Of a stretch of DNA of 64,000 nucleotides, positions 1,480 to 54,854 are shown one piece after another. This stretch comes from Magnetospirillum gryphiswaldense MSR-1 v2 (GTDB lineage: Bacteria > Pseudomonadota > Alphaproteobacteria > Rhodospirillales > Magnetospirillaceae), in contig NC_023065.1 in assembly GCF_000513295.1 (NCBI RefSeq), positions 3,456,501 through 3,520,500 on the forward strand, written 5' to 3'. The notes beneath the pieces are model-generated. The model searched no databases. It was not told the origin of the DNA and saw nothing but the letters and a program-made list of their open reading frames with translations. A program made the translations under genes and the position numbers. The first letter of the stretch is position 1. Each line of letters starts with the position of its first letter.

Positions 1480-1578
1480 CGGCCCAGCCCATGCAATCGG
1501 ATGCGGCAGCAATAGCCGAAGCGGGTCCGGGATACAACATCCGTGCGTCGCTGTCGGTGCTTGTGCTATGGAAAGGCC

Positions 1579-4351: not shown

Positions 4352-4389
4352 GGCGGCATCATCGGTCCGCTTGGCGGCGGGTGCAACCC

Positions 4390-5610: not shown

Positions 5611-5616
5611 GGGAAC

Positions 5617-10088: not shown

Positions 10089-10097
10089 GACGGTGGA

Positions 10098-13057: not shown

Positions 13058-13500
13058 GGCCTCTCCCGCCAGACATAGGGGATGGACGGGTCGTCATGAT
13101 CCTTGCGTTCACCCTCGCTCGGGTCATGGGCAAGGGTGGCGCAATTGGCGACCAGGGCGGTTTCTCCGCCGACGCATTGAAAGCCGGTCCATAAGCCCGG
13201 CGGTACGCTGACCAGGGCATAATCATCATCGCCCAAAGCGATTTCCTGCACCTGACCATGGGTAAGGCTGTGTGGGCGAGGATCGAACAGGACGAAATTG
13301 ATGCGGCCCACCGGTACCGCGTAGTTCAGGCTCATGCGGTGGTGGTAGTGCCAGGCCTTGATCTTGCCAGGATGGACCGAGGAAAAGTAAATCTCGCCGA
13401 ATTGCTGGAAAACCGGAGAATCAACGCGCAACATATGCATCACCGCGCCCCGGTCGTCGGCGATACGGCGCAACGGGGTGAGGACGACACCGTCGATCAC
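13054..13500 (-). CDS. RmlC-like sugar 3,5-epimerase (cupin)
   Basis: A 148-residue cupin of the dTDP-4-dehydrorhamnose 3,5-epimerase type. The signature D-D-R-G-A-V-M-H (residues ~15-22), H-P-G-K-I-K-A-W-H-Y-H-H (the catalytic His of the RmlC family sits in this W-H-x-H segment) and V-P-P-G-L-W-T-G-F are all present. It is shorter than true RmlC (about 180 residues), as is common for RmlC-like proteins in other pathways. Next to rfbF/rfbG it would be expected to epimerise CDP-4-keto-6-deoxyglucose rather than dTDP substrate; that is inference from context. The gene overlaps both neighbours by ATGA. Confidence 0.8.
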   Translation of the reverse strand: MIDGVVLTPLRRIADDRGAVMHMLRVDSPVFQQFGEIYFSSVHPGKIKAWHYHHRMSLNYAVPVGRINFVLFDPRPHSLTHGQVQEIALGDDDYALVSVPPGLWTGFQCVGGETALVANCATLAHDPSEGERKDHDDPSIPYVWRERP

Positions 13501-14567: not shown

Positions 14568-15346
14568 CACCAGCATCTCCACGGAGCCCGGTCCGCGTTC
14601 CACAGATCATTCAGCAGCGTATAGTCGCGATAGGTGTCCATGCATTGCCAGAAACCGTCATGGCGATAGACCATCAACTGGCCGTCGGCCACCACCTTGC
14701 GCATAGGATCTTGTTCCAGCATGACATTGTCGTCGCCGATGTAATCCAGCATTTTGCGGTTGCAGACGAAGTAGCCGCCGGAGATGCAGCCGCCGGTGGC
14801 CTGGGGCTTTTCGTTGAACTCGCGCACGCTGCCGTCGGCCTCGACCCCCAATTCGCCGAAGCGGCCGGGCGGACGTACGCCGGTGACGGTGACCAGCTTG
14901 CCGTGGCCGCGATGAAAATCGACCAGGGCATTGATGTCGATATCGGCGACGCCGTCGGCGTAGGTGAGCAGGAAGTCCTGGTCGTCGCCCAGATATTTGG
15001 CGATGCGCTTGACCCGGGTACCGGTCAGGGAATCGAGACCGGTTTCGGCCAGGGTGATCTTCCAACCGCTTTCGTCGTGATCGCCATGATAGTCGATGGC
15101 CTTCTCGCGCCCCAGCGTCAGGGTGAAGTCGCTGGTGAAGGCCTGATAGTTCAGGAAGAATTCCTTGATGGTGTGGCTTTTATAGCCCAGGCACAGCACG
15201 AACTCGGTGAAGCCGTGGGCGGCATAGGATTTCATCACATGCCACAGGATGGGTGCCGGCCCCACGGGGATCATCGGCTTTGGGATGTTGTCGGCGACGT
15301 CGCGGATACGCGTGCCCTGACCGCCGCAAAGAATGACGACTTTCAC
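14567..15346 (-). CDS. rfbF: Glucose-1-phosphate cytidylyltransferase
   Basis: A 259-residue nucleotidyltransferase. It begins V-V-I-L-C-G-G-Q-G-T-R-I-R (residues 3-15), with K-P-M-I-P-V-G-P and the family-typical Y-A-D-G-V-A-D-I-D and E-K-P motifs. Length and segments match RfbF/DdhA closely. It makes CDP-glucose from CTP and glucose 1-phosphate, supplying the adjacent RfbG. It is the first gene of the minus operon. The start is a GTG at 15346 preceded by an AGGTG about seven bases upstream, and a candidate promoter lies 30-60 bases further upstream. Confidence 0.93.
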   Translation of the reverse strand: MKVVILCGGQGTRIRDVADNIPKPMIPVGPAPILWHVMKSYAAHGFTEFVLCLGYKSHTIKEFFLNYQAFTSDFTLTLGREKAIDYHGDHDESGWKITLAETGLDSLTGTRVKRIAKYLGDDQDFLLTYADGVADIDINALVDFHRGHGKLVTVTGVRPPGRFGELGVEADGSVREFNEKPQATGGCISGGYFVCNRKMLDYIGDDNVMLEQDPMRKVVADGQLMVYRHDGFWQCMDTYRDYTLLNDLWNADRAPWRCW

Positions 15347-21430: not shown

Positions 21431-23734
21431 ATGGATATACAGAATATAGTCTTCGAATTTGGGACAAAAGCCGAGACTTTGGCGCGACTTCAGGTCATGC
21501 CATTTAAGGACGCACTATTTTGTCCACAGATTATTGTTAATTTTTCTGAATGGCAGGCGAATCCAAAGAAGTTAATTGATTTAATTATTGAGCAGTTTCC
21601 CGGTGTTCTGCTGGTTGTTCGTTCCAGTGCGGCTTGCGAGGACGGTTGGGACAACTCAATGGCCGGCGCCTTTAAAAGTATCGCCAACGTCGCCGCCGAA
21701 CATCAGGGAGTACATCAGGCGATCACTGAGGTTTTCGGTAGCTATGGTGGGGGGCGGTCCGGCGACCAAGTTCTGGTTCAGCCGATGGTCCAAGATGTGG
21801 CTTTGTCCGGCGTGGCGTTGAGCCGCGATATCGAAGCGGGGGGGCCATATTACGTCGTCAATTACGACGACCTCACCGGGCGAACCGATACGGTTACCGG
21901 CGGTGGGGAGAGCAAGACCGTCCTGGTGCACCATGCTCGTCCGCAAGCAGTCCACAGCCCGCGTATTCGCAGGATTATCGCCACTGTCTCTGAACTTGTT
22001 GTCGCCACTGGATGCGACGACCTGGATGTAGAGTTTTGCATGACCCATGGCGGTCAGCTTTATATTTTGCAGGCGCGACCTTTGGCCGCCAGCAAGCAAT
22101 GGCAGAACATCGACACGTCCAAGGTCTCGGCAAGCCTTGACGAAGTGCGGATACGGCTGACCGATCTGATGAAGCCGGCCGCGGGGGTTTGCGGAAGCAC
22201 CACCGTTTTGGGTGAGATGCCGGACTGGAACCCCGCCGAGATGATCGGTAATGCTCCACGGCCGTTGTCCTTGTCCCTTTACAAGAACTTGATCACCGAC
22301 GGTGCTTGGTGGCGGGCCCGAGTCAACATGGGCTACCGCGCGGTTCCTCATCCACTGCTGCTTGATCTGCATGGCCGCCCCTATATCGACGTGCGCCTGT
22401 CGCTCAATTCCTTTCTGCCTCAGTCGGTGTCGGATGAGCTTGCGGAAATGCTGGTGAACGGTCAATTAGCGCGCCTAGCCGCCAAACCGGAAAGCCATGA
22501 CAAGATCGAATTCGAGGTGGCGGTCACCTGCCGTGATTTGGCATTTCCGACCGATCGTCTGGCTGAGGACGGGCTTTCCCACGGCCAAATCGCGGAATTT
22601 GAGTATCACCTTAAGGGTCTCACCGCCCGCGCCCTGACATCGGTTCCGCGGATGGCGCACTTGCTGGAGCGGACACGGGGGTTGGCGGGTCACGGTGACT
22701 TGGCCCAGATGTTGGACGATTGCCGCAATGAGGGGACGATCCCGTTCTCGGAATTGGCGCGACACGCATTCATCGGGATGACGTTTTTGAAAAGTTTGGT
22801 TGCCCGTGGCGCGTTAAGCCAGTATCGGGCCGACCTTTTCATGCACAACATTGAGACCGTTGCCGGCGAGTTCGTCGCGGATCTCCATCAAGTCAGTATC
22901 GGCGAGAAATCGCGCGGCGATTTCCTGACCCGTTACGGTCATCTGCGGCCTGGAACCTACGATATTCTGTCAGCTCGCTATGACGAATCGCCAGACCTTT
23001 ATCTGGGGCGTCACAGCCACGCCCCCGAGCAGGTCGAGCCATTCCAACCCACCGGCGAAGAACGCAAGGCCATCGACCAGCTTTTGTCCGAGGCCGGCTA
23101 TCAGGTGGATTGCGGTCACCTTCTGCACTATGTGACGGCGGGCGTTGCCGCGCGCGAGGAAGCGAAATTCAACTTCACTCGCAATGTCAGCAACGGTCTA
23201 GCCGCCATCGACCGATGGGGGGCTGGTCTGGGGCTGTCGCGTGACGACCTGTCGTTCCTGGAAATATCGGATATCCTGAATTCCGCCGACCTGGGTCTGT
23301 TGCGCGACAAAGTGGCGCGGGGGCGTGAGTTCTATGAACTGACGAAGATGATTCGATTGCCCCACCTGCTGTGTGAACCCGACGATATCGACGTGGTACG
23401 AATACCGCTAGGGCGCCCCACCTTCATCACCGGGAAAAGCGTTACCGCCCCGACTATCCAATTAGGGGTGGCGTCCAACGTGGACATTGACGGGCATATT
23501 GTCTTGATCGAGGCGGCGGATCCTGGTTACGACTGGATTTTCTCGCACGATATTGTGGGATTGGTGACCAAGTACGGCGGGGCCAATTCCCATATGGCTA
23601 TTCGTTCGGCGGAATTCGGCTTGCCCGCTGCCATCGGCTGTGGTGAACGACTGTATTCCGTCCTGGCTTCAGGCAAAGTGCTCGAACTCGATTGTGCGGC
23701 AAGCCGGGTTAAAGTAGTGGATTCTCTTCGATAA
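21431..23734 (+). CDS. PEP-synthase-like ATP-grasp/phosphohistidine protein, likely L-glutamine kinase (Cj1418-like)
   Basis: A 767-residue protein. The N-terminal half has the PPDK/PEP-synthase ATP-grasp features: V-V-R-S-S-A-A-C-E-D near residue 62, V-Q-P-M-V-Q near 118, and D-L-D-V-E-F followed by I-L-Q-A-R-P-L-A near 210. The C-terminal swivelling domain has G-G-A-N-S-H-M-A, with His721 as the phospho-carrier. The PEP-binding TIM barrel of true PEP synthase is missing and replaced by an unrelated middle region. This domain plan is that of the Campylobacter L-glutamine kinase Cj1418, which phosphorylates the amide nitrogen of glutamine as the first step to phosphoramidate. The partner enzymes are at 47356-50997. 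The upstream 90 bases are AT-rich; ATG 21431 has no good ribosome site. Confidence 0.75.
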   Translation: MDIQNIVFEFGTKAETLARLQVMPFKDALFCPQIIVNFSEWQANPKKLIDLIIEQFPGVLLVVRSSAACEDGWDNSMAGAFKSIANVAAEHQGVHQAITEVFGSYGGGRSGDQVLVQPMVQDVALSGVALSRDIEAGGPYYVVNYDDLTGRTDTVTGGGESKTVLVHHARPQAVHSPRIRRIIATVSELVVATGCDDLDVEFCMTHGGQLYILQARPLAASKQWQNIDTSKVSASLDEVRIRLTDLMKPAAGVCGSTTVLGEMPDWNPAEMIGNAPRPLSLSLYKNLITDGAWWRARVNMGYRAVPHPLLLDLHGRPYIDVRLSLNSFLPQSVSDELAEMLVNGQLARLAAKPESHDKIEFEVAVTCRDLAFPTDRLAEDGLSHGQIAEFEYHLKGLTARALTSVPRMAHLLERTRGLAGHGDLAQMLDDCRNEGTIPFSELARHAFIGMTFLKSLVARGALSQYRADLFMHNIETVAGEFVADLHQVSIGEKSRGDFLTRYGHLRPGTYDILSARYDESPDLYLGRHSHAPEQVEPFQPTGEERKAIDQLLSEAGYQVDCGHLLHYVTAGVAAREEAKFNFTRNVSNGLAAIDRWGAGLGLSRDDLSFLEISDILNSADLGLLRDKVARGREFYELTKMIRLPHLLCEPDDIDVVRIPLGRPTFITGKSVTAPTIQLGVASNVDIDGHIVLIEAADPGYDWIFSHDIVGLVTKYGGANSHMAIRSAEFGLPAAIGCGERLYSVLASGKVLELDCAASRVKVVDSLR

Positions 23735-28356: not shown

Positions 28357-29046
28357 ATGGCATCGATCCTGTTTATAGGCAAGCGTGACGACTTTTTTTG
28401 CGATCGGGCAGTGGAGTACATGCGGCTGCACTTTCCCGAGACGACATTCGTTCTGGCTCGGCGGGGCGATCCGCGGCCTGCGGTTTTCGACACGTGGCAG
28501 GGTGATTACATCGTGTCATATTTGTCGCCTTACATCGTACCGGGACACTTGCTGGCCCGTGCGAAACAGGCGTCCATCAACTTCCATCCGGGTCCACCGG
28601 AATATCCGGGGAGCGGCTGCACCAACTTCGCCCTTTATCATGAGGTCGAAGAATATGGTGTCACGTGTCACCACATGCTGGAAAAGGTGGATACCGGCGC
28701 CATTGTCGGGGTGCGTCGTTTCCCCGTCCTGCCAATCGATACGGTTTATGCCGTGACCCAACGCTGCTATGCGGCGTTGTTGGATTTGTTCTACGAGGTC
28801 ATGGACCGTTTGGCGGTCGGGCAGCCGTTGCCGGAGCAACCGGACAAGTGGACACGTAAACCGTTCAAGCGATCCGAGTTGGACCTGCTTTGTGAGATTA
28901 CTCTTGAAATGCCGGCGGATGAGGTCAAGCGCCGTATTCGGGCGGTGACCTTCCCCAACGCCCCCGGCGCCTACGTTGATCTGCATGGTCACCGTTTTAC
29001 CTATGCCGGTCCTGTATCGCCCCGGAAGGAGGCTATGCGTCCGTGA
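28357..29046 (+). CDS. Sugar N-formyltransferase-like protein
   Basis: A 229-residue formyltransferase of the methionyl-tRNA/GART fold. Asn75 and His77 in I-N-F-H-P-G and Asp112 in L-E-K-V-D-T-G-A are the Asn-His-Asp triad used by N10-formyltetrahydrofolate formyltransferases such as VioF and FdtF. It lies where the Campylobacter pathway would have the LegH acetyltransferase, between the synthase and PtmE-like genes, so it may formylate the 4-amino sugar (later C7) instead of acetylating it. It might act on another amino sugar of the region. ATG 28357 starts cleanly seven bases after the previous stop. Confidence 0.78.
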   Translation: MASILFIGKRDDFFCDRAVEYMRLHFPETTFVLARRGDPRPAVFDTWQGDYIVSYLSPYIVPGHLLARAKQASINFHPGPPEYPGSGCTNFALYHEVEEYGVTCHHMLEKVDTGAIVGVRRFPVLPIDTVYAVTQRCYAALLDLFYEVMDRLAVGQPLPEQPDKWTRKPFKRSELDLLCEITLEMPADEVKRRIRAVTFPNAPGAYVDLHGHRFTYAGPVSPRKEAMRP

Positions 29047-35980: not shown

Positions 35981-36955
35981 ATGTCCCAGTTTAAACTTCA
36001 GATGGTCGAGACGCTGACGGAAAAGTGCGTATTCGTCGATGGATTGACTCGGACGGGCAAGATGTTGGTCACGCCTTTAGTGTCCAACTTGAAGCATGTT
36101 GAGTACGTCAACATTGCCGTAGAGATCGAGAACTGGGGCCTGTTGTGGCGAATGGGATTCGTCGATTCCAGCACTGCCGCAGCGTCGATCCGTATGGCGC
36201 TGAATTATTTCAGCTACGAGCGCATGGTTGGTCGCCACCTCAACACACGGTCGACCGATCAGTACAGCATCTATAAGTCGCTCAACCTCACGTCATTACT
36301 TCAGCGCAGCGTCGAGCCAGATGGTCGGCGTGCCGTCGAGAAATACCGGAAAGAAGGCTACATCCCCTGTTTCGTTACCCATGATACGCTCCCCAACATC
36401 GAAGTGTTTCTTGAGGCGCATCCCGGATTGATCGTTATCAATCCACTGCGTCATCCGGTTGATACAGTGATGTCCTGGTACCGGCGCGGCTGGGGGCAGC
36501 GTTATGGCACAGACCCCTTGGCGTTCACACCGACCGTGGCCACCGATAAAGCTCCGGTGCCGTGGTGGGCTATGGACAAGGTCGATGAATACGCTGTCGC
36601 TTCACCGTTGGAACGCTCTGTTATGGGCGTGCTCGCTGCCGAGAAAACATACGACGATGCCATGAAGCGGCTGGGCGCCGACGCCAGTAGCCACGTCTAC
36701 ACCTTGTGCTTCGAGCACATGGCGGTGAATCCGGAAGAGGAATTGGGCAAGTTGGCGGATTTCTTGGGAACCGAAATTCCGGCAGAGATGCGCACCATCT
36801 ACGCGCGTGAACGCGTTCCCCGCTGCCTTGATGTTGCCGAGCAGCAGGCGAAACTCAAGGAAATCAAGGACGGCGTTTCCGCCGCGTGTTTCGACGCGAT
36901 CGTCGCAGGCAGTCGGATCTACGAGGCCCGGTTTGGTCTGCCGGAGGTCGCATGA
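35981..36955 (+). CDS. Sulfotransferase-fold protein
   Basis: A 324-residue sulfotransferase-like protein. The N-terminal P-loop-like F-V-D-G-L-T-R-T-G-K-M matches the 5'-phosphosulfate loop, and I-N-P-L-R-H-P-V-D-T-V-M-S-W matches the 3'-phosphate-binding Arg/Ser segment. The usual donor is PAPS. No PAPS synthesis gene is in the window. The phosphoramidate pathway's last visible enzyme makes a PAPS-like 3'-phosphonucleotide, so this protein could be the transferase that uses it; that is a hypothesis (see findings). It is followed by the large GT-B-like protein with a four-base gap. Confidence 0.7.
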   Translation: MSQFKLQMVETLTEKCVFVDGLTRTGKMLVTPLVSNLKHVEYVNIAVEIENWGLLWRMGFVDSSTAAASIRMALNYFSYERMVGRHLNTRSTDQYSIYKSLNLTSLLQRSVEPDGRRAVEKYRKEGYIPCFVTHDTLPNIEVFLEAHPGLIVINPLRHPVDTVMSWYRRGWGQRYGTDPLAFTPTVATDKAPVPWWAMDKVDEYAVASPLERSVMGVLAAEKTYDDAMKRLGADASSHVYTLCFEHMAVNPEEELGKLADFLGTEIPAEMRTIYARERVPRCLDVAEQQAKLKEIKDGVSAACFDAIVAGSRIYEARFGLPEVA

Positions 36956-41963: not shown

Positions 41964-42131
41964 ATGGAATTTCTCAGGGGAAACTTCACACCGAAGAACA
42001 AGGTTGTGGAAGAAGACAAGACTGAATCCCTGGAGGAGCGCTTCGAGCGCGAGGCGCTGAAGCGTCTGGGCGGAAGCATTGCCTTCGTCTCCAAGAAAAA
42101 GGTTATGTGGGACAATAACGGCGATAAGTAA
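41964..42131 (+). CDS. Small hypothetical protein (55 aa)
   Basis: This is a 55-codon open frame, ATG to TAA, between the methyltransferase and the Maf-like gene. A clear GGAGG (41953-41957) stands six bases before ATG 41964; an in-frame ATG at 41958 directly abuts that site and is less likely. The product is charged, starting M-E-F-L-R-G-N-F and rich in Glu and Lys in its middle third, ending in V-S-K-K-K-V-M-W-D-N. It has no membrane segment and no cysteine. Its tight spacing (2 bases after, 16 bases before neighbours) and ribosome site support it as a real small gene. Function unknown. Confidence 0.7.
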   Translation: MEFLRGNFTPKNKVVEEDKTESLEERFEREALKRLGGSIAFVSKKKVMWDNNGDK

Positions 42132-42147
42132 GATCGGATTTCGGACG

Positions 42148-43179
42148 ATGATGGAAGCCACCCAGAACGGTGAACTGGCGTATAAATTGGTCCGGCGTAT
42201 GGATCAAATCACCTGGGATCGCGTTGGGCCCTCGATTGTTGAGAACGTTCACCGCAACAGCAAATTGCTGTCACAGGGACGTTCATTGGCTGATTTGCGC
42301 CACCAAGTGGTGGGCGAGGGCGACAGCGCCATCGTTATCGCCGCCGGCCCCAGCATCAAGCGTCGTGATCCCCTGGCCACCATCAGGGAATCCAGCTACA
42401 AGGGCGCACTGGTGGTGACTGAAAGCGCCATCGCCTATTGTCTGCGCAACGGCATCGTCCCTGATCTGTGTGTGACCCTGGATCCCCATGCGACCCGCGT
42501 GGTCCGCTGGTTCGGCGATCCCGAACTCACCCGCGAGAAGATCGAAGCCGATGACTATTACGCACGCCAGGATATGGACGAATTCTTCGCCGATCAGGTG
42601 AGTTCCAACGTGCAAGTGTTGCGCATGCTCGACGAACATGGGCCGAAAATTCGTATCGCCTTGTGCACCTCGGCGTCCAAGGCCGTGGTTGATCGCGTCC
42701 TGCAGACCGGCATGCAAGTCTATTGGTGGAATCCCATGATGGATGATCCCGACCTGCCGGACAGTGTTACTCGGACGTTCTACGATCTCAACGGTTTGCC
42801 GGCGGTCAACGCAGGCGGCAATGTGGGCTCGGCCTGCTGGATGATGGCCAATGCAGTTCTCGGCAAGAAGCATGTGGCGGTTACGGGAATGGATCTGGGA
42901 TATTACGGCGATACGCCTTACTACAATACCCAGTACTATCATGAAGCTGTTGACCTCGTCGGCAAGGAAAACCTTGACAAACTTTATCCGCGCTTCTTCA
43001 ATCCGCATGTGAGCGAGTGGTTCTACACGGATCCGGCTTATCTGTGGTATCGTGAGTGCTTCATCGAGATGACCCAGGATCCGGATTGCAAGACCTACAA
43101 CTGCACCGAGGGCGGGTGCCTGTTTGCCGACCATATCGACAGCATCCCGCTGGCAGACTTCCTTCGCCGGCACGGCTAA
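42148..43179 (+). CDS. Maf-like protein (DUF115), possible flagellin or glycan nonulosonate transferase
   Basis: A 343-residue protein of the DUF115/6-hydroxymethylpterin pyrophosphokinase MptE-like family. The motif A-A-G-P-S-I-K-R-R, followed by T-L-D-P-H and later V-T-G-M-D-L-G-Y-Y-G, matches the central domain of Maf motility accessory factors, which transfer nonulosonic acids to flagellin. Full-length Maf proteins are usually about 600 residues or longer; this one has only the central catalytic-type domain. The nearby legionaminate genes make a glycosyltransferase role plausible. The ATG pair at 42148/42151 is a start region with weak ribosome site. Confidence 0.8.
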   Translation: MMEATQNGELAYKLVRRMDQITWDRVGPSIVENVHRNSKLLSQGRSLADLRHQVVGEGDSAIVIAAGPSIKRRDPLATIRESSYKGALVVTESAIAYCLRNGIVPDLCVTLDPHATRVVRWFGDPELTREKIEADDYYARQDMDEFFADQVSSNVQVLRMLDEHGPKIRIALCTSASKAVVDRVLQTGMQVYWWNPMMDDPDLPDSVTRTFYDLNGLPAVNAGGNVGSACWMMANAVLGKKHVAVTGMDLGYYGDTPYYNTQYYHEAVDLVGKENLDKLYPRFFNPHVSEWFYTDPAYLWYRECFIEMTQDPDCKTYNCTEGGCLFADHIDSIPLADFLRRHG

Positions 43180-44747: not shown

Positions 44748-45592
44748 GCTTACAGCCCCACGTTGCCAATCCCCTAGTGCTGACCAAGTCGATTTCGCTG
44801 TGCGTCAAGGCCGCCATAAAAAACGCCATGTTGGCCGCCGGATGGTCATGGCGCCATTGGGATAGGGTACACGCTTATGTTCCGCGCCCCGATTCCGACC
44901 GTTTGACGCCGCAGCAAGTGGCCGACATCACCCTCTACTCGATAAACTTCTTTGAACGAGTGAAAACCGATCTAGAGGAACGGTCGGTCGACCAGCGACT
45001 CAACACCTGCGAATACCAAGCCATCCCACTGGTACGCCATGTTCTCGACACCGCCCGTTTGACCGGCAGAGTGCTCAACATCGGATGCGGTTTCCCGCTG
45101 ATCGAGTGCGCGGAAGCGGCGAAAAATTCCGACAGCTTTTGGATCAATCTAGACTTCGTTCCCGATCTTGCCGATCGTTGCGCCGCCATCGCCCGCCCCA
45201 ACACCCGATTCGTTTCCGGTTATCCGCTCGACTGGATTGAACGAACGGACGAGAAAATGTTCGATGTGGCGCTGTTTAACCGGGTGGCGGTATTGCTGAC
45301 GCCCGGTGAATTAAGAAGCTACCTTAAAGCGTTGGCTCGCGTAGCCCGCCATGTTGTGCTATGCGAGCCCGCATGCATCAACCGTTACCCTCGACCGGTG
45401 AATGTGGACACCATTCCGAGCGAACGACCGCTGCCGCTTTACGGAACCATGCACGTACATAACTACCGCTCTCTATTGGCCGAGGCCGGATTCGATCTTC
45501 TGCATTACACAGCCGCTCCGACCCCGATTGAATGGCATGGTGAAGAACATCATCTGATCCAGGCAATCGCACGGAACACAAGTCATGCCTGA
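44744..45592 (+). CDS. Class I SAM-dependent methyltransferase
   Basis: A 282-residue methyltransferase with L-N-I-G-C-G-F-P-L near residue 110 and F-N-R-V-A-V-L-L, resembling sugar-pathway methyltransferases. The region after the SAM motif is poorly conserved so the substrate cannot be guessed. It overlaps the radical SAM gene by four bases (ATGA) and the ABC transporter gene by eight bases. Positioned just before the phosphoramidate genes, it is a candidate for the O-methylation step of an O-methyl phosphoramidate, analogous to Cj1419/Cj1420; inference only. Confidence 0.7.
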   Translation: MSLQPHVANPLVLTKSISLCVKAAIKNAMLAAGWSWRHWDRVHAYVPRPDSDRLTPQQVADITLYSINFFERVKTDLEERSVDQRLNTCEYQAIPLVRHVLDTARLTGRVLNIGCGFPLIECAEAAKNSDSFWINLDFVPDLADRCAAIARPNTRFVSGYPLDWIERTDEKMFDVALFNRVAVLLTPGELRSYLKALARVARHVVLCEPACINRYPRPVNVDTIPSERPLPLYGTMHVHNYRSLLAEAGFDLLHYTAAPTPIEWHGEEHHLIQAIARNTSHA

Positions 45593-47348
45593 GCGCTCTT
45601 ACGGATTTTTTTCTACTTTTTCACGCATACCCCGAAAAGCCAGCATCATCTTTGTCGCGGTCGTGGCCGGACTGCTCGAAAGCGTCGGCTTGGCGCTGTT
45701 CCTTCCTCTGCTCAAAACAATAAACGGCACTGCAGCCGGCAACGAAGCGATATTATCGTCTGAGTTTCTCAAAGTCCTCGGCCTGTCGTCCAATCCGATA
45801 ATCTTAGGGCTGGGGATGGCGGCAACAATCATCGTCGCCTACTTAGTCGTGCTGCTTCGCGATCGCCTGATCATCAATGTAAAACACCACAGCGTCGAGA
45901 CACTGCGGGACCAGATCATCGGCAGTCTATTCCACTCTCAGTGGAAATACCTGTCCGCCCAGGCCGGCGGCGAAGTGATCAACCGATTGCTTGGTGAGTG
46001 CGCACGAGCAGGATATGCATTGACCTATCAGTTGCAAGCAGCTGCGGCAACTGCACAAGCGATTATCTTGCTCTCCCTTTCAGCTGTACTGGACTGGCAA
46101 TTGCTGATCGCTGTAATCGGGTTGGGAGCCTTGGTGGGGCTGGCCATCATGCCGCTGATGCGGCGATCCGCAAGAATAGGGCGAGAAACTGACGCAGAAA
46201 CCCGCAGCTACAGCTTCCATGTGATAGACTTTCTGCGCGGCGCCAAGTTGATACGGGTAACCGGCGCTGAAATGGAAGTGATCCAGCGCATTGCAGGCCT
46301 GAACGCGGCCACTCGAGATGCAAACGTGCGCGGCGAGTACACAATGGCGCTGACCAATTTTGTGGTTCGCTCTGCACCGGTCGCCATGGCGGGCATTTTG
46401 ATTGCATTGGCCACCGGCGCTTTTTATATCCCAGCAGCGGTTCTTCTGACTTTCATCCTGCTTCTGTCGCGAATCGCGCCGCTGCTGACGCAGGTGCAGC
46501 AACATCTGCAAGGTTATGCTGGCTACCGCAATGCGCTTGCGGTCGTGGACCAAGCGATCGCCCAAGCCGACGCTTTCGCCGAGCCGGCCACCGGCGTCAT
46601 GCCGCCGGTGGCCGGCATCGGTCGCGGCATTGACCTGCGCGGCGTGGGTTTCACCTATGACGGAAGCGAACACCCGGCTCTGATCAACATCAACGTTACC
46701 GTCCCACGCAATTCCACCGTCGCCGTCGTCGGCGGCTCGGGCGGAGGCAAAAGCACATTAATCGACTTGATCGCGGGCATCCGTTCCCCGAATGCAGGAC
46801 AGGTGATCGTCGACGGCAACGATCTCGCACGAATGGACGGTCACTCGTGGCGACGGCGAATCGGTTATGTCACCCAGGATGTAGTCATCCTTCACGACAC
46901 TTTGCGCAACAACCTGACGTTCGGCCGGTCGGCTATCACTGAACAGGATTTGCAATGGGCCATCGCCAAAGCTCATCTCGACTCTGTGATCAAGGACTTG
47001 CCAGACGGTCTTGAAACTGTGCTCGGTGAGGCTGGGACACGCCTGTCGGGCGGACAAAAACAACGGGTTTCTTTGGCCAGGGCGCTTGCCGGTCGACCTG
47101 ATCTGCTGTTGTTGGACGAGGCGACCAGCGCCCTTGACGCCGAGGCGGAGGCGGCGATCAAGCAGGCGTTGGATGAATTGGCAAGTGATCTCACCATGGT
47201 TATCATCGCCCATCGTCTTAACACGGTGGCCCACGCCCAGATGGTTTACGTCATGGAAGGTGGGCGGATCGTCGAAAGCGGTACGTTCGAGGATCTGAAG
47301 CGTCTGGGTGGACGTTTTACGCAACTGAGCAACCTGCAAAATCATTAG
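45585..47348 (+). CDS. ABC transporter (fused TMD-NBD), PglK-like glycan flippase
   Basis: A 587-residue exporter. Six hydrophobic segments precede a nucleotide-binding domain with Walker A G-G-S-G-G-G-K-S-T (residues 383-391), signature L-S-G-G-Q-K-Q-R and Walker B L-L-L-L-D-E-A-T-S. This is the type I half-transporter plan of PglK and MsbA, acting as a homodimer to flip lipid-linked oligosaccharide. It could serve a second glycan in addition to the Wzx pathway. The stop TAG is part of a G-rich stretch (47348-47354) that acts as the ribosome site of the next gene. Confidence 0.85.
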   Translation: MPERSYGFFSTFSRIPRKASIIFVAVVAGLLESVGLALFLPLLKTINGTAAGNEAILSSEFLKVLGLSSNPIILGLGMAATIIVAYLVVLLRDRLIINVKHHSVETLRDQIIGSLFHSQWKYLSAQAGGEVINRLLGECARAGYALTYQLQAAAATAQAIILLSLSAVLDWQLLIAVIGLGALVGLAIMPLMRRSARIGRETDAETRSYSFHVIDFLRGAKLIRVTGAEMEVIQRIAGLNAATRDANVRGEYTMALTNFVVRSAPVAMAGILIALATGAFYIPAAVLLTFILLLSRIAPLLTQVQQHLQGYAGYRNALAVVDQAIAQADAFAEPATGVMPPVAGIGRGIDLRGVGFTYDGSEHPALININVTVPRNSTVAVVGGSGGGKSTLIDLIAGIRSPNAGQVIVDGNDLARMDGHSWRRRIGYVTQDVVILHDTLRNNLTFGRSAITEQDLQWAIAKAHLDSVIKDLPDGLETVLGEAGTRLSGGQKQRVSLARALAGRPDLLLLDEATSALDAEAEAAIKQALDELASDLTMVIIAHRLNTVAHAQMVYVMEGGRIVESGTFEDLKRLGGRFTQLSNLQNH

Positions 47349-47355
47349 GGGGGGC

Positions 47356-47976
47356 ATGTTGCGTATCGCCCTAACCACACGGGTCACCCATCCTCAAGGT
47401 TATGCCGAGCCGCGTGACAGTTTGGCGCAGGACTGGACATCCTTGTTGGACGGCTGGGGGATGTTGCCGCTACTTGTTCCCAACACCTTGGCTAATCCTG
47501 CCGGCTGGGTCACGGCGCTGGTGGCTGACCTGTTGATATTGACCGGGGGCGAGGATTTGGGCAGCGACGAATCGCGTGATCGCACAGAACAAGCCTTACT
47601 GGAGCATGCTTTGTCCACCGGATTGTCGGTCTTGGCGGTCTGTCGAGGTCTTCAACTGGTCAACCGTCATTTCGGCGGAACCCTTGAACGTGTTAAAGGA
47701 CATGTCGCCAGTCGGCATTCGGTGCGTGTCGTGCCCGAGTGGCAAGACTTGTTGGGGGCCGAGCCCCAGGTCAATTCCTATCATAATTGGGCCATCCCAC
47801 CCCATGGACTGGGACGGGGATTGCGGTCGGTGGCCTGTGATCCCGAAGGACATGTAGAAGCCTTTACCTTTCCCGGAATTGCCTTGCTGGCGGTGATGTG
47901 GCACCCTGAAAGACCAATCATCCGGCTTCAGGATCGAGAACTTCTACAGCGCCTAGCAGCCAAGGATTTACCGTGA
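47356..47976 (+). CDS. Class I glutamine amidotransferase-like hydrolase, likely gamma-glutamyl-CDP-amidate hydrolase (Cj1417-like)
   Basis: A 206-residue class I GATase/peptidase C26 protein. Cys96 lies in V-C-R-G-L-Q and His183-Pro-Glu185 in W-H-P-E-R, giving the triad. No amidotransferase partner is fused, which favours a stand-alone hydrolase. In Campylobacter, Cj1417 of this fold releases glutamate from gamma-glutamyl-CDP-amidate to give cytidine diphosphoramidate. The following gene overlaps by four bases and is its expected partner cytidylyltransferase. The start ATG 47356 follows a run of seven G's that forms the ribosome site. Confidence 0.8.
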   Translation: MLRIALTTRVTHPQGYAEPRDSLAQDWTSLLDGWGMLPLLVPNTLANPAGWVTALVADLLILTGGEDLGSDESRDRTEQALLEHALSTGLSVLAVCRGLQLVNRHFGGTLERVKGHVASRHSVRVVPEWQDLLGAEPQVNSYHNWAIPPHGLGRGLRSVACDPEGHVEAFTFPGIALLAVMWHPERPIIRLQDRELLQRLAAKDLP

Positions 47977-48761
47977 CTACAAACGCCGTCATTCTTGCCG
48001 CCGGCAGTGGTAGCCGCTTGCGGCCCTATACCGATGATCGTCCGAAATCCATGGTCGAATTGGGTGGAATGAGCCTGATCGAACGCCAGGTGAGCACCTT
48101 GCGGGCGGCTGGCATCGAAGACATCACCATGGTTGTGGGCTACCGCGCCGAGGCGTTCGATCAGCTGTGCTTGCCGACAGTGCTGAACCCCGCGTGGGAT
48201 GTCACCAACATGGTGGAGACCCTGTTCTGCGCTGGTCATTTGATCGGTCCGGACACCATCGTCGCCTATGCTGACATCATTTATCAGCCCAACGTGATCC
48301 AAGCGTTGTGCGACAGCCCGCACGACGTCTCGGTCATCGTTGATCGCGGTTGGCGCACCTACTGGGAAAGCCGTTTCGACAATCCATTGGACGATGCCGA
48401 GACTCTGCGCCTGGACCCACAGGGGCGCATTGTTGAAATCGGCAACAAGCCGCAAAGTTTCGACCAGATCGAGGCGCAATATATCGGCTTAATGCGTTTT
48501 CGCGGTGAAGGCGTAAATATCCTGCGCCAGACACGGGCGGCGATGGGGTCTTGTCATCGGTCGTGGATGGACAAGCGTCCCATGGAAAAGGCCTACATGA
48601 CCGACCTTTTGATGGAAATGGTGTTGACTGGGCATCCGCCCCACGCCGTGTTCATCGATCACGGATGGCTGGAAATCGACACCGTCACCGATTACGAGAC
48701 GGCGCGGGCCAAGTTCGCCGACGGCTCCATTCGTGGGCAGTTTGACCCCGCCGCACGCTGA
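47973..48761 (+). CDS. Nucleotidyltransferase, likely CTP:phosphoglutamine cytidylyltransferase (Cj1416-like)
   Basis: A 262-residue nucleotidyltransferase of the LicC/phosphocholine cytidylyltransferase type. V-I-L-A-A-G-S-G-S-R-L-R-P-Y (residues 5-18) and R-P-K-S-M are the nucleotide-binding blocks, and N-P-A-W-D-V-T-N-M-V-E-T-L and A-Y-A-D-I-I-Y are the phosphocholine-type active-site segments. Campylobacter Cj1416 uses CTP and L-glutamine phosphate to form gamma-glutamyl-CDP-amidate, and genes of its partners flank this one. Start GTG 47973 overlaps the previous stop (GTGA). Confidence 0.8.
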   Translation: MTTNAVILAAGSGSRLRPYTDDRPKSMVELGGMSLIERQVSTLRAAGIEDITMVVGYRAEAFDQLCLPTVLNPAWDVTNMVETLFCAGHLIGPDTIVAYADIIYQPNVIQALCDSPHDVSVIVDRGWRTYWESRFDNPLDDAETLRLDPQGRIVEIGNKPQSFDQIEAQYIGLMRFRGEGVNILRQTRAAMGSCHRSWMDKRPMEKAYMTDLLMEMVLTGHPPHAVFIDHGWLEIDTVTDYETARAKFADGSIRGQFDPAAR

Positions 48762-50479
48762 TGAGTCGGGTGCCGAATATCCTGTTGCTGACCATTGACG
48801 CGCTTCGCTGCGACAGGATGAGCCTGCATGGATATTCGCGGTCGACCACGCCCAACCTGGACCGTTTGGCCACCCAGTCCATCGTGTGCGACCGCAACTC
48901 CTCACTGGCCGCTTTCACCCAGGCGTCCTTTCCCACCATCATGACCTCGACTCGGCCGCTTTCCTACGGCGGCTACGACAACGGCACGCTGGGCCGACCG
49001 GCCACCGTGCTGCGCGCCTGCCACGATGCCGGCTGGCATGTAACACTGCTCAGTTCGTTCAAATGGATCACACGCTTTTTCGGCTATGGTGACGGCGTCG
49101 ATTCCGAAGTCCATCTGTTCTCGCCGGTCAATCTCATGGGAATGGCCTTCAACCGCATGAAAAGCTCGGTGATGAGCCGCGCTGCCGGCGCGTTGAGCGA
49201 GGACGAGATGCTGGCGCTGGTCACGCCGGTAATGGATGATCTGTTTGTCCAGTTGGACGCATATTGCGTCGCCCGCAAGAGCCAGGGCGAGGCCGATCAC
49301 CAAGATTTTGGCGATACCCGCCTGGTTCGCGACGGCTTCGACTTCCATAAGGTGCAGTCCGTGGTGCATCGCCATCGGGCTGCGTTTGCCGGCGATCCCC
49401 GGGCCTATATGCGGAAGCATTTCGCCACCATGCCGGAAGCTCATGGCTGGCTAGCTGAGGAGTGGCGCTATTGCCGCAAATGGTCGCGGCTGGCCGAGGA
49501 GGCGGCTTTTCGCGCTGGTAACGCACTGGTCGGGGTGGTGGACAAGCGCGCCGCCATCCTGCGCGCGAACCGGCTTAAGCCCTTCGTCGATGGCGCCGCC
49601 CTGGCCGATCGTGTTATCCGGCTCATGCGCGATCGTGATCGCTCGAAGCCGTTCCTGATCTGCACTCACTTCCTCGACACGCATCTGCCCTATGCACCCG
49701 GGCGCGGCAGCCGGTGGTACAAGTCGGCACGCGATTATCTGCGGCCGTTGGGTTATGGCGACGAGATCGACATCTCGGCTGCGGTTACCAAACGCCCCCG
49801 CCGTCCAGACCTGTTGCCGTCATGGAGCGCCATGTATGACGCCGCGTTGCGCTATGTCGACGAGCAGATCGGTCGTATCGTCGCGGCGTTGGATGAGCCT
49901 GAGAACACCATCGTCGTCATCTGTGGCGACCATGGCGAGGAATTGGGCGAGCACGGCAATTACAGCCATTATTTCCGCCTGCACCACCACAATACCTGGG
50001 TGCCGCTGATCTTTATCCGGCCTGGCTCGCAGGGGATGCGTGTCGATGGCTTGACCAGCCTGCTGGACTTGGCCCCCACCCTAGCCCATTTGGCCGGTGC
50101 TCCCGCCATTCCCGGCTGGGAGGGGGCCGTGGTCACGTCGTCCGAAGTGGCGATACGTCAGACCATGGTGATGGAGACCTTCTACGGCGGCAATTGCCTG
50201 TTTGACCACCGTCCGGTCTACATGGCGGCGCGGGACCGCCGCATGAAACTGATCTGGAAAGAAGCCATGGACCCCGATGACAGGTTCGGTCCCATGGGCA
50301 ACGAATTGTACGACCTGGACGCGGATCCATTGGAGCAGGTCAACCTGTACCGGCCCGATCACGACGCCTTGCCCGTGCTGGAGCGCGCTGTGGCGGGCCG
50401 GCTGGCCGAGATCCCACAATTCGGTCGCGCCCGCCTCGCCCGGGCGTTTCCAGCTTTCGCAAAGGAGATGGCACCATGA
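48761..50479 (+). CDS. Alkaline-phosphatase-superfamily (sulfatase-like) protein with Thr nucleophile
   Basis: A 572-residue sulfatase-fold protein. The metal site has Asp13 in T-I-D-A-L-R and Asp390-His391 in C-G-D-H-G-E-E-L-G-E. The nucleophile position, Cys or Ser in arylsulfatases, reads F-T-Q-A-S-F-P (Thr53), so formylglycine is impossible. A Thr nucleophile in this superfamily is typical of phosphoethanolamine and related phosphotransferases. No N-terminal membrane segment is seen, unlike EptA-type transferases. It lies in the phosphoramidate gene block with TGATG and ATGA overlaps, so it may hydrolyse or transfer a phosphoramidate or phosphate group. Campylobacter Cj1415-1418 has no such gene. 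Confidence 0.75.
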   Translation: MSRVPNILLLTIDALRCDRMSLHGYSRSTTPNLDRLATQSIVCDRNSSLAAFTQASFPTIMTSTRPLSYGGYDNGTLGRPATVLRACHDAGWHVTLLSSFKWITRFFGYGDGVDSEVHLFSPVNLMGMAFNRMKSSVMSRAAGALSEDEMLALVTPVMDDLFVQLDAYCVARKSQGEADHQDFGDTRLVRDGFDFHKVQSVVHRHRAAFAGDPRAYMRKHFATMPEAHGWLAEEWRYCRKWSRLAEEAAFRAGNALVGVVDKRAAILRANRLKPFVDGAALADRVIRLMRDRDRSKPFLICTHFLDTHLPYAPGRGSRWYKSARDYLRPLGYGDEIDISAAVTKRPRRPDLLPSWSAMYDAALRYVDEQIGRIVAALDEPENTIVVICGDHGEELGEHGNYSHYFRLHHHNTWVPLIFIRPGSQGMRVDGLTSLLDLAPTLAHLAGAPAIPGWEGAVVTSSEVAIRQTMVMETFYGGNCLFDHRPVYMAARDRRMKLIWKEAMDPDDRFGPMGNELYDLDADPLEQVNLYRPDHDALPVLERAVAGRLAEIPQFGRARLARAFPAFAKEMAP

Positions 50480-50997
50480 TCATATGGCTGGTCGGTCTGT
50501 CTGGCGCCGGTAAAACGACGGTGGGACGCGAGGTGGTGCGGCAGTGGAAGCGGAGCGCGCCCAATACCGTGCTGGTGGACGGCGACGAGATCCGCGCGCT
50601 GTACAAGCACGATCAGCGCCCCGGCTCGCATACCGTCGAGGGCCGCCGGGACAACGCCGAACGCATCACCGCGTTATGCCATTGGCTGGACGGTCAGGGG
50701 ATCAACGCGGTGGTCTGCATCCTGTCCATCTTCCCCGAAATGCGGGCCGAGAACCGCATGCGGTTTTCCCAGTATTTTGAAGTCTATCTCAAGGTTCCGT
50801 TGCCGGCCTTGCAGGCGCGCGACGAGAAGGGCCTGTACGGCAAGGCGGCGCGTGGCGAGATGACCCATGTGGTCGGTATCGATATTCCGTTTCCGGAGCC
50901 CGAGACGGCTGATCTAGTGGTGGACAACACGCCGGGTGCTGCGGCCCCAGAGAACTTGGCCCGCCGCATATTGGAAGGCGCGGGGGTGCTGAAATGA
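50476..50997 (+). CDS. Adenylylsulfate-kinase-like protein, likely cytidine diphosphoramidate kinase (Cj1415-like)
   Basis: A 173-residue kinase resembling APS kinase (CysC). Walker A G-L-S-G-A-G-K-T-T is at residues 7-15, V-D-G-D-E-I-R at 34-40, and A-R-D-E-K-G-L-Y-G-K-A with a V-G-I-D-I segment follows, all of the APS-kinase fold. Campylobacter Cj1415 of this fold phosphorylates the 3'-OH of cytidine diphosphoramidate, producing a PAPS-like activated donor. ATG 50476 overlaps the preceding stop by four bases. No ATP sulfurylase is present, which argues against true PAPS synthesis. Confidence 0.8.
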   Translation: MIIWLVGLSGAGKTTVGREVVRQWKRSAPNTVLVDGDEIRALYKHDQRPGSHTVEGRRDNAERITALCHWLDGQGINAVVCILSIFPEMRAENRMRFSQYFEVYLKVPLPALQARDEKGLYGKAARGEMTHVVGIDIPFPEPETADLVVDNTPGAAAPENLARRILEGAGVLK

Positions 50998-52255: not shown

Positions 52256-53260
52256 ATGCGGGAAGAGGATATTCGCCCTGAGGCCTTGCTGAACGAGTAT
52301 CTGCGTCTTTCCGCCGCAGATGCGGAGCGGATACTGGCGCAAGGCGGGCGTTTGCAGCAACGCCCTTGCCCCGGCTGCGGAGAAGGGGAATGCTTGCCGC
52401 AGGGAAAAAAAAATGGCTTTCGCCTAGCTCGTTGCCCCCAGTGTGATACCTTGTACGCCATCGATTGTCTGGATGAGGCGGGATTGACTGCCTTGTACGG
52501 CGGTTCGCCGTCTGCGGAATATTGGGCCAGCGTGTTCATGCCGGCGGTTGCCGAGGCGCGGGCCCTGAATATCTTCAGGCCCCGCGCCCGGGCGGTTCAC
52601 GACCTTGTTTGCCAGCACGCTATGCCGCCGGCGCGTATGATCGATGTGGGGGCGGGAAACGGGGTGTTCCTTCAGGAATTCGCCGCCATCGGCTCGGCGA
52701 TGGAATGCTGTGCGGTGGAGCCGGGAGAGGCCGCCTCAAAGGCGTGCCGGGCCCTCGGTTTCTCGACTTTCCAAGGGTTTTCCGCCCAGGCGGCTCAGGC
52801 CGAAGGCTGGAAAGGAGGCTTTAATCTGGCCACCAGTTTTGAAGTCATCGAACACGTTCCCGATCCGGCCCAGTTTCTGCGCGAAATGGCAGCACTGGTG
52901 TGTCCGGGGGGGCTGATCCTGGCGACCGGCTTAAGTGGCTCGGGCTTCGACATCGTCAGCCTGGGCTTGAATGCCAAGGCGGTGGCGCCGCCTCATCACG
53001 TGAATTTCCTCAGTCGTCATGGCGTCAGTCGTTTGCTCGCGCGCAGCGGTTTGACCGAGCTAGCCTTCGTCACGCCGGGAAAACTTGACGTGGAAATCGT
53101 CGATAAGGCGTTTCAGGCCGATACGAATCTGATTTCAGATCCATTCCTGTCCCGCTTGCTGCGTCATGGCGGGGCAGAGCAAAAGGCGATGTTCCAAAGC
53201 TTCCTGAGCCAGGCGGGGTTGTCGTCGCATATGTGGATTTTGGCGCGTAAGGAACGCTGA
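52256..53260 (+). CDS. Zinc-ribbon SAM-dependent methyltransferase
   Basis: A 334-residue class I methyltransferase with an N-terminal Cys4 zinc-ribbon (C-P-G-C near residue 40 and C-P-Q-C near 60), then M-I-D-V-G-A-G-N-G-V-F as SAM motif and F-E-V-I-E-H-V-P-D as motif after it. This plan is found in sugar methyltransferases of TylM1/NovP-like or C-methyltransferase sort. The ATG directly follows the stop of the formyltransferase gene. It may methylate the sugar or the phosphoramidate. Substrate not readable. Confidence 0.75.
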   Translation: MREEDIRPEALLNEYLRLSAADAERILAQGGRLQQRPCPGCGEGECLPQGKKNGFRLARCPQCDTLYAIDCLDEAGLTALYGGSPSAEYWASVFMPAVAEARALNIFRPRARAVHDLVCQHAMPPARMIDVGAGNGVFLQEFAAIGSAMECCAVEPGEAASKACRALGFSTFQGFSAQAAQAEGWKGGFNLATSFEVIEHVPDPAQFLREMAALVCPGGLILATGLSGSGFDIVSLGLNAKAVAPPHHVNFLSRHGVSRLLARSGLTELAFVTPGKLDVEIVDKAFQADTNLISDPFLSRLLRHGGAEQKAMFQSFLSQAGLSSHMWILARKER

Positions 53261-53261
53261 G

Positions 53262-54854
53262 ATGGGCGTCTTGCTTCACCGCAGCAATGACCTGCCAAGT
53301 CCGGTCGAGTACCAGAATTGGGTCGGCATCGGTGGTTTGCGGGCCACCCCGGATGGGCCGGCCATGGATCTTTCGGCAGCGTTGGAGGATTCTTTCGATA
53401 GCCAAGCCCAGCACTGGTTGAAGATTGGCTATGATTTGGCCTTGGACCCAAGCGCCGACTTGGCCCACACACCGGCCTGCGTCGCCAACGCATCGGATTT
53501 CGGCGCCATGCTGGGGTGGGGAGCGTTGCTGAAAAAGTGGTCTGACCAGACCGGCACCGTCCTTGTCGTCTGCGATGACCCCTGGCTGTTCCGCCATTTC
53601 CGGAGGTTTCCCGGTGTCGTGGCTGGTACGGCGCCGCCTTTACTACCTCAGGTCCTGCGTCTCGCCATCCGTGGATATCTGGCCCGCATGCGTTTTACGG
53701 TGCGAATGGTGGTTCGCTATCTCAGGCAAGCGCGGCCTAGCCCGGCTCCAGGGGGAAGTTGGGTGTTGACCTATGCGCACCCTTCCAGCAACGGTGCTGG
53801 CCAGGATGCCTATTTCGGTGATCTGATGAGCAAGCTGCCGGGGCTGCGCCGGGTGCTGCATGTGGACGGACGGGCGGAGGTGACCGAACGGCTGATCTCG
53901 GAACGGACGGTCGCGCTCTCGTCTTGGGGATCGATCTGGTCGGCGTTCGGTCTACCGTTTGTCCGGTGGCGCCCCTCTCGCCGTCATCGTCATGGACCCC
54001 AGGGCTGGTTGGTCCGGCGGGCGGCAGCGATGGAAGGGGGGTCGGCTCAGGCCGCTGCCATCCGCTGGCAGCAAATCTGCCAGCGGAGGTTCATGGCCGA
54101 CCTGCGGCCAAACGTCGTGGCCTGGCCCTGGGAAAACCACGCCTGGGAACGCGATCTGGTAAGAGTCGCCCGTGTTCATGGAGTGAAAACTGTTGGTTAT
54201 CAGCATTCTGTCGTCGGCCGGCAGATGCTGAACTACGCGCCAGCATCCAACCCGGATGGGGAAGACGGCCTGCCGGACATGATGCTGTGCACCGGAACGA
54301 CGACGAGAACGCAACTGATGCAATGGGGGGTTCCTTCGGCGCGTACACGGGTTGCCGGCGCCCACCGCTTCGCCGCCTCGGCAAAAGTGGAATATGATCC
54401 CGCCCAACCAGTGTTCCTGGCCCTGCCGTTCGATTTGGCGACGGCCGCCGACATGTTGGAAGCGGCGCGTCGGGCGGTCAAAAGCGGGTTTCGTTTCTGG
54501 GTCAAGGATCACCCGATGACGCCATTCCAATTTCAGGAAAGCGCCGGGATAAGCCGCGTCCATCGCCCCCTGACCGCTTGTTCGGCGGTTAGGGCGGTAG
54601 TTTATGCCGCGACCACTGTTGGACTTGAGGCGGTGTTGATGGGTTTGCCGACACTTCGCTTTCGGCCTTCCGGACGAATATCGCTTGATATTCTCCCCGT
54701 CGGTTTATCCGTTCCGGTGACGGGTCCGAACGATTTGGCGGAAGTTTTAGGGACTTTGTCTTCGCCGCCACCACTGGACCGCAATCTGTTTTTTGCTCCT
54801 GTCGATGAAACCTTGTGGGCTGACATGATGGAAGGCCGCGCCAATGAGCAGTGA
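53262..54854 (+). CDS. GT-B-like glycosyltransferase, possible CMP-ulosonate transferase
   Basis: A 530-residue protein with a GT-B-like C-terminal half: V-G-Y-Q-H-S-V-V-G, then W-V-K-D-H-P-M-T-P and Y-A-A-T-T-V-G-L-E-A, i.e. the H-P motif plus Thr/Ser donor loop of capsule/sialyl-type transferases. The N-terminal half is not recognised. It sits just before a fused aldolase-CMP-synthetase gene, overlapping it by 11 bases, so it is a good candidate for transferring the CMP-sugar made there. It is the second protein of this motif type; the first is at 36960. Family assignment is unproven. Confidence 0.6.
   Translation: MGVLLHRSNDLPSPVEYQNWVGIGGLRATPDGPAMDLSAALEDSFDSQAQHWLKIGYDLALDPSADLAHTPACVANASDFGAMLGWGALLKKWSDQTGTVLVVCDDPWLFRHFRRFPGVVAGTAPPLLPQVLRLAIRGYLARMRFTVRMVVRYLRQARPSPAPGGSWVLTYAHPSSNGAGQDAYFGDLMSKLPGLRRVLHVDGRAEVTERLISERTVALSSWGSIWSAFGLPFVRWRPSRRHRHGPQGWLVRRAAAMEGGSAQAAAIRWQQICQRRFMADLRPNVVAWPWENHAWERDLVRVARVHGVKTVGYQHSVVGRQMLNYAPASNPDGEDGLPDMMLCTGTTTRTQLMQWGVPSARTRVAGAHRFAASAKVEYDPAQPVFLALPFDLATAADMLEAARRAVKSGFRFWVKDHPMTPFQFQESAGISRVHRPLTACSAVRAVVYAATTVGLEAVLMGLPTLRFRPSGRISLDILPVGLSVPVTGPNDLAEVLGTLSSPPPLDRNLFFAPVDETLWADMMEGRANEQ

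Follow-up and report, generated by a model that had tools for sequence, protein, structure and literature searches.

A putative phosphoramidate-donor gene cassette in Magnetospirillum and its relatives in other bacteria and archaea

Among described systems, the closest to the genes analysed here is the O-methyl phosphoramidate (MeOPN) pathway of Campylobacter jejuni, which has four biosynthesis genes, cj1415-cj1418 (PMC3907429), with Cj1416 as the cytidylyltransferase (PMC12275187). In the accessible parts of two reviews, MeOPN is given as identified in Campylobacter only (PMC6429109, from 2019) and the glutamine kinase as specific to C. jejuni (PMC9561416, from 2022). Phosphoramidate without the methyl group has been reported from the lipopolysaccharide (LPS) of Xanthomonas campestris and Shewanella, in work cited in PMC3907429, and a Borg gene cluster has been proposed, from structure prediction, to produce O-methyl phosphoramidate (PMC12660748). 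Here we analyse a window of 64,000 bases (C1:3456501-3520500 in the 4,365,796-base, single-contig genome of a Magnetospirillum) that holds a cassette with the same four enzyme types as C. jejuni by family match: a glutamine kinase, a cytidylyltransferase, a hydrolase and an adenosine 5'-phosphosulfate (APS)-kinase-like kinase. We consider it probable that an activated phosphoramidate donor, destined for a surface glycan, is produced in the cytoplasm of this host.

A first-pass annotation of this DNA had described three adjacent, overlapping genes for the hydrolase, the cytidylyltransferase and the kinase. The open reading frames (ORFs) are indeed where it placed them on the + strand; however, a sulfatase-fold gene separates the cytidylyltransferase from the kinase. 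That gene, the two that follow the kinase and the frequency of such cassettes were all absent from the annotation. From the hydrolase through to the protein here called FTN, successive genes overlap by 1-4 bases. The Campylobacter counterparts named below, other than Cj1416, follow the gene-to-step assignments that we take to hold for that pathway.

21431..23734, + strand: L-glutamine kinase-like protein (Cj1418 type), 767 amino acids (aa), phosphoenolpyruvate (PEP)-synthase-like, His721 in the mobile domain
47356..47976, + strand: class I glutamine amidotransferase (GATase) hydrolase, gamma-glutamyl-cytidine diphosphate (CDP)-amidate hydrolase-like (Cj1417 type), 206 aa
47973..48761, + strand: LicC-like cytidylyltransferase (Cj1416 type), 262 aa, NTP_transf_3
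48761..50479, + strand: sulfatase-fold protein, candidate phosphoramidate transferase, 572 aa, PF00884, Thr53 at the nucleophile place
50476..50997, + strand: APS-kinase-like protein, proposed CDP-amidate kinase (Cj1415 type), 173 aa
50994..51548, + strand: X184, helical protein without a family, 184 aa
51545..52255, + strand: FTN, formyltransferase-fold protein, 236 aa, PF00551, His-x-His replacing Asn-x-His

Compared with the C. jejuni pathway, the window adds the sulfatase-fold gene, X184 and FTN, its glutamine kinase lies apart, and its hydrolase reaches only 86.5 bits to the corresponding family model. In X. campestris and Shewanella a surface glycan, LPS, carries a phosphorus-nitrogen (P-N) group; this is described as a chemical structure, and the accessible part of PMC3907429 names no genes for it. 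The Borg report names a phosphoglutamine cytidylyltransferase-like gene outside Campylobacter, as a prediction in archaeal extrachromosomal elements, and its accessible part names neither a pair like X184 and FTN nor a wider distribution (PMC12660748). The literature searched, which covers few subscription papers, contained no description of the cassette in the form given here, including X184 and FTN.

Homology, synteny and fusions suggest the following roles for the four core enzymes. The glutamine kinase (21431) would phosphorylate the amide nitrogen of L-glutamine, the cytidylyltransferase (47973) would convert the product to its CDP derivative, the GATase hydrolase (47356) would cut off glutamate to leave CDP-amidate, and the APS-kinase-like enzyme (50476) would add a 3'-phosphate. 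A transferase, for which the sulfatase-fold protein (48761) and the downstream protein P530 (53262) are the likeliest candidates, may then move the group to the glycan before export, perhaps via the ATP-binding cassette (ABC) transporter encoded at 45585. The group, while still bound to the nucleotide, is the probable target of X184 and FTN, in whose place many other cassettes have a methyltransferase. A core function as a phosphoramidate-donor pathway is likely, and the earlier reading of a Campylobacter-type pathway in an alphaproteobacterium is supported by family matches, synteny, co-occurrence, fusions and active sites; the part played by a transferase and by the additional proteins, and the presence of a P-N glycan, are unproven.

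The glutamine kinase-like protein, which had been put forward as completing the pathway, scored 840 bits in the family model search against NF004508 (cut-off 501), presumably the family that contains Cj1418. Its His721 is kept in 80 of the 81 glutamine kinases aligned (rows below 700 bits were left out), the remaining one being a sequence that is itself cut off. A glutamine kinase over the cut-off was carried by 7 of 61 genomes, the host included, and by none of the 14 control genomes; among Pseudomonadota genomes the count was 14 of 398, again including the host, with none in the 14 controls at E 1e-100. Cassette-level hydrolase matches, at 72-103 bits, were confined to the same seven of the 61 genomes (Fisher p 2e-9, kinship not corrected), the next match (47.8 bits) being a second gene in one of those seven and the one after it reaching 38.6 bits. 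All seven also have a cytidylyltransferase and a kinase in the same region, and in four, window included, the order is hydrolase, cytidylyltransferase, sulfatase-fold gene, kinase. Among the relatives, G006 is a genome of the same genus as the window, and in G043 the glutamine kinase, cut by a contig end, stands directly ahead of the hydrolase-to-kinase block.

A wider genome scan gave at least 542 encoding stretches, and the best 80, which are those nearest the query, were analysed as loci (L048 was left out of the neighbour set, its contig being represented already). They come from Pseudomonadota, Acidobacteriota, Chloroflexota (Anaerolineales), Planctomycetota, Omnitrophota, Bacteroidota, Bacillota, Haloferax and other archaea, among others, and the scan matches include a contig of Magnetospirillum sulfuroxidans J10. 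The hydrolase was present in 70 of the 80 loci, the cytidylyltransferase in 70, the kinase in 58 and all three in 55, some of the misses reflecting short contigs; in the 48 wide loci, flanked on each side by 4.9 kb or more, the counts were 45, 46, 38 and 37. Since the best 80 are the loci nearest the query, a less biased, even draw was made of 14 loci from 13 other Pseudomonadota genomes. Of these loci, 12 had the hydrolase and 12 the cytidylyltransferase, 7 the kinase, 6 a methyltransferase, 6 a sulfotransferase-like gene, 1 FTN and 1 X184, so that FTN and X184 are common near the window's branch and not in general. No Campylobacter locus was found among the best 80 of the at least 542 stretches or among 26 matching plasmid records. 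The range of phosphoramidate would widen, as first expected, if the cassettes of these many phyla work as proposed; the range in print was already wider (Xanthomonas and Shewanella LPS, the Borg prediction). Two loci, L118 and L120, have glutamine kinase homologues with no other profiled cassette gene within the fetched flanks. A viral origin was considered and rejected: one of 35 pattern stretches in viral contigs encoded a relative, and the one matching phage record, L158 (MT837632.1), which has a glutamine kinase-hydrolase fusion, is an unverified gut contig that may be bacterial DNA.

The hydrolase matches the GATase class I/Peptidase_C26 family, and each residue of the catalytic triad first proposed for it (Cys96, His183, Glu185) is present in 76 of 76 aligned cassette hydrolases, a set comprising the window, six relatives and scan proteins above 150 bits, with weaker and mostly cut-off proteins excluded. 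Of nine families compared, the best was NF045546, gamma-glutamyl-CDP-amidate hydrolase (86.5 bits, E 2.4e-24, cut-off 250), followed by one at 34.6 bits; the gamma-glutamyl-gamma-aminobutyrate (gamma-Glu-GABA) hydrolase (PuuD) model NF008471 gave 27.4 bits against a cut-off of 266. Scores of this order are usual for the cassette: 15 of 16 cassette genomes matched NF045546 at 71-130 bits, all below the cut-off, and the sixteenth gave no match.

For the cytidylyltransferase, which adjoins the hydrolase in the relatives, LicC (1jyk) is the closest relative in the PDB by sequence, in agreement with its first description as LicC-type. It has an NTP_transf_3 Pfam match, and its best NCBIfam models are sugar nucleotidyltransferases, every one under its cut-off; these searches do not separate it from them or from LicC. 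A different CDP-linked head group made by the same folds, such as phosphocholine, phosphoglycerate or a phosphorylated amide other than glutamine, would agree with the resemblance to LicC and with the promiscuity described for C. jejuni Cj1416 with manganese (PMC12275187). The linked glutamine kinase, the intact triad of a GATase of the gamma-glutamyl-CDP-amidate hydrolase type and the fusions of these two fit an N-linked phospho-glutamine, and we regard another head group as improbable.

The kinase was confirmed as APS-kinase-like, with a P-loop kinase family match at 50476-50997 (NF004041 149.6 bits, cut-off 127; APS_kinase in Pfam) and P-loop residues Gly12 and Lys13 kept in 65 of 65 cassette kinases. 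In the active-site alignments, kinase rows below 100 bits and cytidylyltransferase rows below 200 bits were left out. A tree was built from these 65 and 23 other APS-kinase-like proteins (3 of 26 comparison rows were dropped as cassette copies, and two of the 23 left are identical). It required two label changes, compared with a shuffle mean of 20.6 and no shuffle of 500 as low. It set 63 of the 65 cassette kinases apart from 22 of the 23 others, and the cassette kinases did not group with CysC/CysNC-like kinases. The branch making this split has a Shimodaira-Hasegawa-like approximate likelihood ratio test (SH-aLRT) value of 85, below the 95 mark, in what is a quick tree. The exceptions are two cassette kinases, L073 and L117, beside the others, and the non-cassette L149 among the cassette kinases; the window kinase falls within the starred set of 21 cassette kinases.

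This separation bears on a sulfation operon as the alternative, in which the kinase would be a 3'-phosphoadenosine 5'-phosphosulfate (PAPS) kinase that supplies a sulfotransferase, sulfate would be trimmed by the sulfatase-fold protein and the other enzymes would be generic. The APS_kinase match, a sulfotransferase-like gene (35981-36955) and the sulfatase fold would suit such an operon. Against it stand the distance of the cassette kinases from 22 of 23 other APS-kinase-like proteins, their fusion to the glutamine kinase in five loci, the threonine at the formylglycine position of the sulfatase-fold protein, and a CysNC-like kinase already present elsewhere in the genome at C1:512791, which scores 221 bits to PF01583 compared with 102.7 for the cassette kinase. 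On the tree separation and the separate CysNC-like kinase, the PAPS-kinase reading of the window kinase was rejected, and a sulfation operon is very hard to credit. The first-pass annotation had named the PAPS kinase, phosphocholine cytidylyltransferase and gamma-Glu-GABA hydrolase families as the competing assignments; these were not seen for the kinase or the hydrolase, while the cytidylyltransferase is, in these searches, indistinguishable from LicC and sugar nucleotidyltransferases.

Fusions further join the core genes to one another. The kinase is fused to the glutamine kinase in 5 of the 80 loci, perhaps through one event, as the five form one clade of the kinase tree. The hydrolase and glutamine kinase are fused in two places, in opposite orders (one of the 80 loci and the phage record). 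Twelve glutamine kinases, one of them on a plasmid, have an N-terminal nucleotidyltransferase-like domain (L061, L068, L072, L078, L084, L089, L097, L098, L101, L112, L123, L160). A separate kinase is missing from 6 of 8 wide loci with this last fusion, versus 4 of the 40 other wide loci (Fisher p 0.0004, from a hand count and with kinship not corrected).

Three further genes lie beside the cassette.

45585..47348, + strand: ABC transporter, membrane and ATPase parts, nearest models HepA and MsbA, both under cut-off
52256..53260, + strand: S-adenosylmethionine (SAM) methyltransferase, 334 aa, Pfam methyltransferase, gap 0 to FTN
53262..54854, + strand: P530, surface-carbohydrate-type protein, second transferase candidate, C-terminal part weakly CDP-glycerol-transferase-like

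The ABC transporter gene ends 7 bases before the hydrolase gene, and the methyltransferase and P530 follow FTN at gaps of 0 and 1. The methyltransferase belongs to the same gene chain, and its putative link to the cassette is unproven.

S1 sulfatases need a cysteine or serine that becomes formylglycine. The protein encoded at 48761 shares their fold (model with a mean predicted local distance difference test score, pLDDT, of 83; Foldseek matches to sulfatases, best E 2e-17) but differs at this very position, where Thr53 faces the Cys or Ser of two aligned sulfatases; threonine occupies it, and neither Cys nor Ser was found there, in 9 of 9 sulfatase-fold proteins. A sulfatase reading of 48761-50479 was rejected on this ground. 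A hydropathy scan of its 572 aa gave no window above 1.6. P530 has a TIGR04326 match of 63.9 bits, under the cut-off of 250, and an hhalign value of 82.5% to the profile of CDP-glycerol-transferase-like proteins (GlyPT); it lies near the cassette also in G001, G006 and G043. In the 80 loci, GlyPT was found in 20, a sulfotransferase-like gene in 11 and a sulfatase-fold gene in 5, the last occurring besides in the window and three relatives. No locus has two of these types at the main cut-offs, but at looser cut-offs L078 and L119 do; that the three types are interchangeable last enzymes is suggested, without significance. In the window itself, the sulfatase-fold gene is accompanied by the sulfotransferase-like gene at 35981 and by P530. 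Because of its place in the cassette, the sulfatase-fold protein is preferred as the window's transferase, with P530 second.

X184 had no Pfam or NCBIfam match, and a PDB search with its profile gave nothing better than E 0.05. In the natural X184-FTN fusion of L109 (mean pLDDT 89; predicted template-modelling score, pTM, 0.86), the X184 part is modelled as helical and the best Foldseek match is the formyltransferase domain of ArnA (E 5e-12); all of the 50 matches listed are formyltransferase-type and align about 210-265 of the 446 residues, with the X184 part unmatched. Formyltetrahydrofolate-dependent formyltransferases have the catalytic set Asn-x-His ... Asp. FTN shares the fold, the downstream His and the Asp with the ArnA/methionyl-tRNA formyltransferase family, but has His where the aligned methionyl-tRNA formyltransferases have the catalytic Asn; this replacement holds in 34 of 34 family members above 160 bits, none of which retains the usual set (13 of 47 FTN matches and 1 of 32 X184 matches were left out of the counts).

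X184-FTN fusions occur in six loci (weakly in L078) and kinase-X184 fusions in two lineages (rows L082 and L171 apparently represent a single locus). These fusions tie X184 to both the kinase and FTN, and FTN may therefore act on the nucleotide-bound group. The association of FTN with X184 holds once kinship is counted (7-8 of 8 pairs agree, median p 0.016). In the 80 loci, FTN and a specific methyltransferase were never found together (FTN only 32, methyltransferase only 18, neither 30; Fisher p 2e-5), but an exclusion is not claimed: with kinship counted, only 1-3 of the 8 pairs carry information and the result is not significant, it depends on the cut-off (L104 has a methyltransferase and a 151-bit FTN-like gene, under the 160-bit cut-off), and the window has FTN beside a methyltransferase of a different kind. 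What lies between the kinase and P530 also varies, from X184, FTN and a methyltransferase in the window to a histidine-phosphatase-motif protein and a methyltransferase-like protein in G001; in G006 and G043 a protein of 403-404 aa without assignment directly follows the kinase. Histidine-phosphatase-motif proteins lie near cassettes in 2 of 88 loci only (L043:9611-10198 and L159:16918-17496, the latter so annotated); that these might recycle the nucleotide by-product is an idea only.

The surroundings of the cassette are those of a glycan locus. From about 15.5 kb to the window end the longest ORFs lie on the + strand, and G+C is 0.53-0.61 beyond 16 kb, compared with 0.64-0.66 over the first 12 kb; positions 1-15346, ahead of the glycan island, hold mainly minus-strand ORFs. 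The island encodes NeuC, NeuB, the sugar amidotransferase WbuX, a HisF-like protein and a GATase, and the glutamine kinase gene precedes NeuC and NeuB of the nonulosonate set. Adjoining NeuB among these genes is another formyltransferase (28357-29046), which keeps the usual N-x-H motif, and the sulfotransferase-like gene (35981-36955) lies in the same + strand cluster. At 42079-43179 is an MptE-like protein with weak similarity to PseD of flagellin modification (36 of 670 bits), and the glycan may accordingly be one carried on flagellin. That CDP-amidate is made for a small phosphoramidate metabolite and not for a glycan, in line with the existence of P-N natural products (PMC6429109), has very little probability beside nonulosonate, other sugar and ABC transporter genes in the window and the glycosyltransferase genes that adjoin two named plasmid cassettes.

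Several observations weigh against a phosphoramidate-donor cassette of the composition proposed here. The glutamine kinase gene (21431) lies 24 kb upstream of the other core genes. The hydrolase falls under its NCBIfam cut-off, with 86.5 of 250 bits, and control genomes also contain hydrolase matches at E 1e-12 (2 of 14) and at E 1e-3 (14 of 14), so its modest score alone is not specific. Among the 48 wide loci the kinase is absent from 10, at least one core gene is missing from 11, and 23 have none of the transferase candidate types. Mutual exclusion of those types is not significant for any pair (p 0.06, 0.32 and 1.0), and the GlyPT and sulfatase-fold profiles match none of the 14 even-draw loci. 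FTN, present in 32 of the 80 loci selected for closeness to the query, occurs in 1 of the 14 even-draw loci. Finally, the comparison with Campylobacter was made through family models.

Phosphoramidate tagging may be a widespread and modular system of bacteria and archaea. One branch of it, to which the window belongs, would have a new chemistry: X184 would bind the CDP-amidate kinase or its product, a His-type FTN would acylate or otherwise cap the P-N nitrogen at the donor level, and a cytosolic sulfatase-fold enzyme with a threonine nucleophile would then transfer the group to the glycan. We put this fuller scheme forward tentatively and think it rather unlikely to hold as a whole. If the cassette works as proposed, P-N tagging of surface sugars would occur in many phyla, archaea included, and the chemistry may be commoner than thought. 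The pathway would then have been hidden under misleading annotations, namely PEP-utilizing enzyme, gamma-Glu-GABA hydrolase family, phosphocholine cytidylyltransferase family and adenylyl-sulfate kinase, all four of which are seen on the cassette of an Azospirillum plasmid. The cassette also supplies a laboratory host, itself harmless, for work on this chemistry, and candidates for the transferase step.

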